The notes under the pieces were generated by a model. That model saw only the letters and a program-made list of their open reading frames with translations. It was not told where the DNA came from and did no database searches. Both the position numbers and the translations under genes were made by a program. Positions 12,835 to 14,631 of a stretch of 34,787 bases of DNA are shown here, one piece after another. Source of the DNA: Nitrospirota bacterium (GTDB lineage Bacteria > Nitrospirota > 9FT-COMBO-42-15 > HDB-SIOI813); NCBI GenBank assembly GCA_020846775.1, contig JADLDG010000058.1, forward strand, positions 1-34,787. Reading direction: 5' to 3'. Position 1 is the first letter of the stretch, and every line of letters starts with the position of its first letter.

Positions 12835-12864
12835 ATAATAACCGCAAAGTTTACGGTATGTCAA
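12835..12864 (-). promoter_or_regulatory. Promoter with palindromic operator before the outer-membrane protein gene
   Basis: The minus strand shows a perfect TTGACA (12864-12859), an 18-base spacer and TATTAT (12840-12835). The TGA stop of hflX is part of the -35 box. The spacer is almost filled by the 17-base near-palindrome ACCG-C-AAA-G-TTT-A-CGGT (12841-12857, plus strand), in which only one symmetric pair is mismatched. A repressor bound there would block RNA polymerase. The start codon at 12824 is ten bases beyond the -10 box. Confidence 0.6.
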
Positions 12865-14483
12865 GGGATGAATAGTTTCGATTCCAGGATAGTTAACAAA
12901 GGTGAAAGGGTCTCCGGGTGGAGGGCAGAAACGGCACAGGCATCGAACCTCTTGCAGAGGACTCTGACTGATTCCTCATCACACTTATCCGTTTTGTTGA
13001 AAACGAGTTGTCTTTCTATGTGGTCTATTCCAAGTTCAGTGATTATTTTATCTACAGAATCCATATGCTGTTCAAACCTGGGGCTGCTGATATCCACTAC
13101 ATGAAGGAGCAGGTGCGCATCTCTCAATTCATCCAGGGTAGCCCTGAAAGCGCCGAACAAATCATCAGGAAGCTCTTTAATGAAACCGACTGTATCTGTT
13201 ATGATAACCTCTCTGTCTCTCGGGAACCTCAGCCTCCGGCTCGAAGTGTCGAGGGTCGCAAACAGAAGGTCCTCAGTCTTCACTGAACTTTTTGTCAAAG
13301 AATTAAGAAGTGTTGACTTCCCTGCATTTGTATATCCCACTATAGATACTATTGGAATACCGCTCTGGACACGTCTTTCTTTTCTTTGTCTTCGTGCACT
13401 GCTTAAATGCTCAAGCTCCTTTTCGAGGTGTGTGATCCTGTCCCGTATACGCCTCCTGTCAACCTCCAGTTTCATCTCACCAGGGCCCCTTCCGCCTATG
13501 CCTCCTGCAAGCCTGGACAATGCCTTTCCTGTACCTGTAAGACGGGGGAGCAGGTATTTGAGTTGTGCCAATTCCACCTGAACCTTGCCGTCACGGCTGT
13601 GGGCATGCCTGGCAAAGATATCGAGGATAAGCTGAGTCCTGTCTATAACACGTACATCCGTCATCTCGCCTATAGATTTTACCTGAGTGGGTGACAGGTC
13701 CTGGTCAAATATTATCAGATTGGCGCCGCTCTGGAGTGATTTAATTATAAGCTCTTTGAGCTTTCCCTCACCCATTAAATACCTCGGATGCAACACCTTC
13801 GGCCTTTGAATCACAGTATCGAGTATTTTAACCCCAGCTGTCCTGGCAAGTTCCTTCAGCTCTTCAATGGAATCCGCCTGATCACTCTTGCTTTTCAAAG
13901 AGGCACTGACGACAACAGCCCTGTCCCCCTTGTCAATTTCTATCCCCTCACTGGTAAGAGAAAGCCGCCTGTCAATTTCACTGAATAGATCCTCCATGTT
14001 TAAATCCAGACGATGGAATAAAACCTTATCTAACACCTTGTATGCCTTGCCTTCTGAATTAGGGGGTATAAGATGGGCCATATAGACATTTTCAGGGAAG
14101 CCGTCTGCTGTAATGCTTATCACTGCCATCAGGTCTAATCTCAGCAGTGCAAGGTCAGTCAGGTCATCCTGGGACAGGGATTCATTTTTAAGGTGAGTGT
14201 GGACACACCTTATACTTCGTGTATACCTCTTTCCAAAACCAAATTCAGAAATATCGGGGATTACTATCTCCCTGTGGTCACCAATAATAACATGATGGAT
14301 TACACCATTCCTGTCCACCATTATGCCGATCTGCCTGTTTATTTCACGGGAGATGGATGTGATGTATCTCGCAAGTTCAGGAGTAATCAGCTCTGCAGGA
14401 GGAATGCGGCGTCTGTAAATATTTTTTAACCGTCTGAGCTGATCAGCCTTTAATCCGGATGTGTTGCCGTAAAGGGTAGAAAT
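12861..14483 (-). CDS. hflX: GTPase HflX (ribosome-associated), apparently starting at ATT
   Basis: Ribosome-splitting GTPase of the Obg-HflX superfamily. The full frame gives 540 residues: the family's N-terminal LYGNTSGLKADQLRRL and IYRRRIPPAELITPELARY, the HflX domain ending in GGRGPGE (about 330-336), then the G domain with GYTNAGKS (about 383-390), DTVGFI and NKTD. The first ATG (14321) would remove 54 residues that match conserved N-terminal family sequence. Upstream of it the frame holds no ATG, GTG or TTG until a TGA at 14504-14502. Between that stop and the conserved region lies AAGGAGG (14498-14492), eight bases before an ATT at 14483-14481, which is therefore the best start. A sequence error or a downstream start is the alternative. 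Confidence 0.9.
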   Translation of the reverse strand: MSTLYGNTSGLKADQLRRLKNIYRRRIPPAELITPELARYITSISREINRQIGIMVDRNGVIHHVIIGDHREIVIPDISEFGFGKRYTRSIRCVHTHLKNESLSQDDLTDLALLRLDLMAVISITADGFPENVYMAHLIPPNSEGKAYKVLDKVLFHRLDLNMEDLFSEIDRRLSLTSEGIEIDKGDRAVVVSASLKSKSDQADSIEELKELARTAGVKILDTVIQRPKVLHPRYLMGEGKLKELIIKSLQSGANLIIFDQDLSPTQVKSIGEMTDVRVIDRTQLILDIFARHAHSRDGKVQVELAQLKYLLPRLTGTGKALSRLAGGIGGRGPGEMKLEVDRRRIRDRITHLEKELEHLSSARRQRKERRVQSGIPIVSIVGYTNAGKSTLLNSLTKSSVKTEDLLFATLDTSSRRLRFPRDREVIITDTVGFIKELPDDLFGAFRATLDELRDAHLLLHVVDISSPRFEQHMDSVDKIITELGIDHIERQLVFNKTDKCDEESVRVLCKRFDACAVSALHPETLSPLLTILESKLFIP

Positions 14484-14498
14484 ATAGTAAACCTCCTT
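14484..14498 (-). promoter_or_regulatory. Shine-Dalgarno sequence that decides the hflX start
   Basis: AAGGAGG (14498-14492, minus strand) is followed by eight bases and then ATT. It is the best-matching ribosome-binding site near hflX, and the only start-like codon at correct spacing in the hflX frame is this ATT. The in-frame TGA four bases farther upstream (14504-14502) excludes an earlier start. Confidence 0.75.
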
Positions 14499-14535
14499 AA
14501 GTCAGTTTATTATTTTACCCTTCTGTGGTCAACTA

Positions 14536-14631
14536 TTATGTTAAGGCATAGAGCACAGCCACGACTATTACCCCTTTTGTCAGTATAACGACAGACTCAA
14601 ATATCAAAGCTATTCTGTTATTTGTAATCAT
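14536..14631 (-). CDS. Small single-span membrane peptide, 31 residues
   Basis: An ATG at 14631-14629 preceded by AAAGGAG with eight-base spacing opens a 31-codon frame ending in TAA at 14538-14536. The product has a short polar start (MITNNR) and then an uninterrupted hydrophobic stretch with one Lys (ALIFESVVILTKGVIVVAVLYALT), enough for one membrane helix. It lies between the GGDEF/HD-GYP gene and hflX on the same strand, about 50 bases before the hflX start. I recognise no family. Support comes from the good ribosome-binding site, the length of the hydrophobic run and the otherwise empty gap; a chance frame is possible. Confidence 0.5.
   Translation of the reverse strand: MITNNRIALIFESVVILTKGVIVVAVLYALT

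Follow-up and report, generated by a model that had tools for sequence, protein, structure and literature searches.

Translation of hflX in a 34,787-nucleotide stretch of DNA from a Nitrospirota bacterium (contig JADLDG010000058.1; hereafter the window) almost certainly starts at an ATT codon at position 14483 of the minus strand, as judged from a comparison of related genes. The same codon position is occupied by ATT, ATC or ATA (collectively ATH) in relatives from several phyla, a strong Shine-Dalgarno (SD) sequence lies just upstream, and infC shares this architecture. The hflX start is probably an infC-type weak initiation site that is exposed to initiation factor IF3.

The hflX start site

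The minus-strand frame runs TGA (14504-14502) CTT AAG GAG GTT TAC TAT ATT (14483-14481) TCT ACC CTT TAC GGC AAC. The original prediction, made from the letters of the window alone, had described an in-frame TGA, 54 codons devoid of ATG, GTG and TTG ahead of the first ATG, and an AAGGAGG motif placed eight bases before ATT; all are present as described. The first in-frame canonical codon after the TGA is the ATG at 14321, codon 55 when counted from ATT, and none of the frames contains ATG, GTG or TTG until 109 nt past ATT. The features of the region are compiled in Table 1.

Table 1. Features of the hflX 5' region and coding sequence in the window.
Feature	Position	Strand	Basis or remark
Putative -35 hexamer, TTGACC	14527..14532	-	Conserved in L002, L003 and L004
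Putative -10 hexamer, TAAACT	14504..14509	-	Conservation and position in relatives
In-frame TGA stop upstream of ATT	14502..14504	-	Sequence reading
SD sequence AAGGAGG, spacer 8 nt	14492..14498	-	In relatives, SD enrichment confined to this offset
hflX initiation codon ATT (fMet expected)	14481..14483	-	Conserved ATT/ATC/ATA column without canonical alternative
hflX coding sequence; 540 aa when started at ATT, 486 aa at the first ATG	12861..14483	-	TIGR03156
Long-form HflX N-terminal extension (modelled as residues 1-195)	13899..14483	-	Absent from the E. coli-type model; alignment and model
First in-frame canonical codon, ATG (codon 55)	14319..14321	-	Inside predicted strand 52-57; unlikely start

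Conservation in relatives

A comparison of hflX 5' ends in related genomes, which had been proposed together with the ATT start, was carried out on 177 distinct sequences from genomes of the same genus, the family, the Nitrospirota, the Desulfobacterota and one small third phylum; the search beyond the Nitrospirota yielded just the latter two groups. The column of the window's ATT is occupied by ATT in 58, ATC in 43 and ATA in 36 sequences (ATH in 137 of 177) and by ATG in nine. At other nearby columns ATH occurs in 0-14 sequences, except for columns 4 and 8, where the protein has ordinary Ile/Val/Thr positions. Retention of ATT, ATC or ATA across phyla excludes an artefact, and the predicted start can be regarded as real.

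The most informative relatives are the 98 in which no ATG, GTG or TTG is found between the in-frame upstream stop and residue 24. In 92 of these genes without a possible canonical start, ATH stands exactly at the window's ATT column, and 89% of the 98 carry an SD core before it, compared with 1-10% at control offsets. In 22 relatives ATH is preceded by an in-frame stop at a distance of one to three codons, and in several the stop is directly adjacent, for example as TAA-ATA in L043, L049 and L085; these stops fix the N-terminus. A strict set of 129 ATH genes, which also lack a canonical codon in positions 2-5, contains an SD in 127 cases. According to our reading of the genome groups, it includes Nitrospira-like, Leptospirillum-like and Thermodesulfovibrio-like families. 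Taken together, hflX displays the sequence hallmarks of an infC-type ATH gene, namely an ATH codon without a usable canonical start, a strong and well-spaced SD and conservation of the rare codon (137/177).

A plasmid search for hflX led only to Fusobacterium, whose hflX is annotated with a start at another position. In four relatives (the Manganitrophaceae-like L060 and L083, and L207 and L219), hflX has no clear ATG, GTG, TTG or ATH at the usual column; the candidate starts are ACG, CTG or a displaced ATT, ATC or ATA.

Gene specificity

In the genome to which the window belongs, infC begins with ATC; in the relatives it begins with ATA, ATC or ATT, and an SD precedes it in almost every case. 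Genomes of the Nitrospirota family f2 that were examined have an ATH start in infC although their hflX begins with ATG or GTG. The possibility that the lineage tolerates ATH starts in general was considered as an explanation and rejected on two grounds. In the same genomes as hflX, the start codon is canonical in 27 of 30 obg genes and in 29 of 30 lepA genes, and on a contig of 260 kb from a genome of the same genus infC is the sole clean ATH case among 205 long open reading frames (ORFs). ATH starts are therefore not used loosely in this lineage and, by these sequence controls, the trait is gene-specific. Sporadic ATH starts are seen in another ribosomal GTPase: obg apparently begins at ATC or ATT in L244 and L247 (family f3), and with ATG in their siblings L248 and L249.

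Proposed weak initiation and control by IF3

The E. coli HflX protein splits 70S ribosomes under stress (PMC9067457), and by homology the same activity would be expected of the window's HflX. A strong SD on a very short leader would bring the 30S subunit to the ATT codon, whose imperfect pairing with the initiator tRNA would make for weak initiation that IF3 could reject, as it does on infC. The site, which is retained as ATT, ATC or ATA with a strong SD across the Nitrospirota and much of the Desulfobacterota, likely keeps the ribosome-splitting GTPase scarce; falling IF3 activity would then raise HflX synthesis in step with infC, a response from which the cell may benefit. The link to IF3 is plausible, given that the architecture recurs in infC, both in this genome and in the relatives, and that IF3 discriminates against such codons. 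That IF3 sensing, beyond low output, is the selected function is a proposition that we consider almost evenly balanced.

A serious rival is a pure low-expression set-point. The ATH codon might only hold HflX at a low and constant level, as in pcnB, because excess splitting is harmful, and the IF3 level would not be usefully sensed. We regard this explanation as possible, though not the one to be favoured. It draws on an apparent trade-off between codon and SD: while nearly all genes of the strict ATH set have an SD, only 5 of 35 hflX genes with a canonical start do and 30 lack one. Within one close group, L027, L078 and L030 combine ATC with an SD and L024 and L089 combine ATG with no SD, so that codon and SD change together; L027, L030 and L024 belong to a single genus. 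The SD-poor canonical genes are explained no less well by low expression as the selected trait than by IF3 sensing. After correction for relatedness, however, support for the trade-off is modest (six well-supported independent pairs, p 0.125).

Further points against a mere set-point are that the hflX site is identical in design to that of the autoregulated infC and that ATH with SD is by far the commoner form and has persisted even though a single mutation would give ATG. On a maximum-likelihood tree of hflX built without the first three codons, at least 33 interchanges among ATT, ATC and ATA and at least six changes between ATH and ATG were counted at the window's column. By these approximate parsimony counts, changes between ATH and ATG (6/39) are low against the one in three third-base changes that would be expected to give ATG (p 0.01). 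Family f2 of the Nitrospirota and most Desulfuromonadales (the latter two codons further in) use ATG, GTG or TTG for hflX, so the ATH codon is not indispensable.

If IF3 sensing is the function of the site, hflX and infC, both with ATH and a strong SD, may form an ancient IF3-controlled pair across the Nitrospirota and Desulfobacterota, a suggestion that we put forward tentatively. In such a pair, a drop in IF3 activity would raise the ribosome-splitting HflX together with the factor that holds the subunits apart, and a translation-level regulon would be defined solely by the start codon. An ATH start kept throughout a phylum by the gene of a ribosome-splitting GTPase suggests that ribosome recycling takes regulatory input from the discrimination that IF3 exerts on start codons.

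Comparison with known systems

Control of rare start codons by IF3 has been established for infC and for Streptomyces sigR (PMC5472188). The infC gene, which starts at AUU, AUC or AUA and is autoregulated, resembles hflX in its ATH codon, the strong SD just upstream, the deep conservation and its role in the ribosome subunit cycle. Autoregulation of infC has been proven in E. coli, whereas hflX, known here from its sequence, would be a target and not the sensor. Like hflX, sigR combines a rare start codon with a strong SD that are conserved in a lineage, and it is repressed by IF3; it differs in its GTC or GTT codon, its restriction to one genus and its product, a stress sigma factor (PMC5472188).

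Other non-canonical starts are known from genes that do not encode initiation factors. E. coli pcnB, cited as the second chromosomal example of AUU (in PMC1780047 and PMC13009471), is such a gene, and AUU limits its expression; unlike hflX, it encodes poly(A) polymerase. In Staphylococcus, ccpN (AUA) and cvfC1 (AUU) reach about 10-30% of the output obtained with AUG (PMC13009471). Their non-canonical starts are conserved, as in hflX, and are accompanied by an extended SD, but the two genes, detected by ribosome profiling, encode a metabolic regulator and a small protein (PMC13009471). Closest in product is lepA of Borrelia and Bacillus licheniformis, a ribosomal GTPase gene with an inferred AUU start (PMC1780047). 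In contrast to hflX, these cases are isolated annotations (PMC1780047), and lepA of the Nitrospirota is canonical.

The kind of control is thus already known; the gene and a conservation that is phyla-deep appear to be new. No report of an hflX gene with a non-canonical start was found in the literature searched, which took in few subscription journals. Very few genes other than infC are known to retain a non-canonical start over long evolutionary times. Gene callers restricted to ATG, GTG and TTG hide control by ATH starts, and in many genomes the annotated N-terminus of HflX is likely wrong.

The N-terminal extension of HflX

The protein belongs to the HflX GTPases (TIGR03156, 440.8 bits against a cut-off of 216.75). 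The match to the E. coli-type model NF008280 begins only at residue 184, which identifies the window protein as a long-form HflX. The claim that the conserved N-terminus is encoded upstream of the first ATG holds: residues 1-54 show conservation at the protein level in every aligned relative and carry the invariant G6, G10, L11, R24, S45 and Q51. In the predicted structure (pLDDT 86.6), strand 3-6, helices 13-24 and 35-48 and strand 52-57 are formed, and in this model a start at ATG 55 would cut into the N-terminal fold.

These data bear directly on the view that the true start is ATG 14321, the first canonical codon and the gene callers' choice, and that the conserved stretch upstream is untranslated. 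Beside the conservation of that stretch as protein and the location of codon 55 inside a predicted beta strand, the first canonical codon varies widely among relatives and the SD is positioned at ATT. A start at ATG 14321 is thus very improbable and is effectively refuted by the comparative data.

The extension has no match to a Pfam family and no sequence relative in the PDB. Its alignment reveals an invariant HTH...D motif (H95-T-H97 and D107/D110), and the top Foldseek matches of its AlphaFold model are JAB1/MPN (JAMM) proteins with weak E values of 0.04-0.15. The candidate catalytic Glu of a JAMM-like reading is not invariant. The extension could possibly be an unrecognised JAMM-like domain.

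Promoter, leader and remaining alternatives

A putative promoter, TTGACC-17-TAAACT, has its end at 14504, which is 20 nt upstream of ATT; it is kept in the genus and in L004. Since promoter-like sites in the scan were no more numerous than in shuffles, the promoter call rests on conservation and position. Promoter-like pairs close upstream of ATH were found in 41 of 136 relatives, compared with 13 of 136 in a control window, and in ATH relatives they cluster with the end of the -10 hexamer 18-23 nt before the ATH codon. Transcription is predicted to start at about 14498-14496, giving a leader of about 14 nt that consists of the SD and the spacer only. The 5' end of the mRNA probably coincides with the SD, in which case no upstream start codon would be transcribed. 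As the in-frame TGA overlaps the -10 hexamer, the frame upstream of it probably remains untranscribed.

A 31-codon ORF (14536-14631, minus strand) with its own SD lies just ahead of the hflX promoter and encodes a hydrophobic peptide; it is conserved in L003, of the same genus, and absent in L002. This small ORF offers a starting point for canonical initiation upstream or out of frame, followed by frameshifting into hflX. Such a route is hardly conceivable and was rejected: the ORF terminates ahead of the promoter and has no counterpart in L002, all frames around the SD are free of canonical triplets in the window and in 96 of 127 relatives, and the predicted leader measures only about 14 nt. 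A sequencing or assembly error, for example the loss of G from ATG ATT, could yield the window sequence by a single-base loss, but its probability is negligible and it is refuted by the relatives: ATT, ATC or ATA occupies this position in two genomes of the same genus and in more than 130 further relatives, most of them without any canonical alternative. Both this error and the downstream start are ruled out by the conserved ATH column, the SD and the close upstream stops in relatives.

In L004, an insert of about 60 nt, located about 90-20 nt upstream of hflX, separates the conserved promoter from the SD; it is flanked by a CACTGATAGAAA duplication and resembles a small mobile element.
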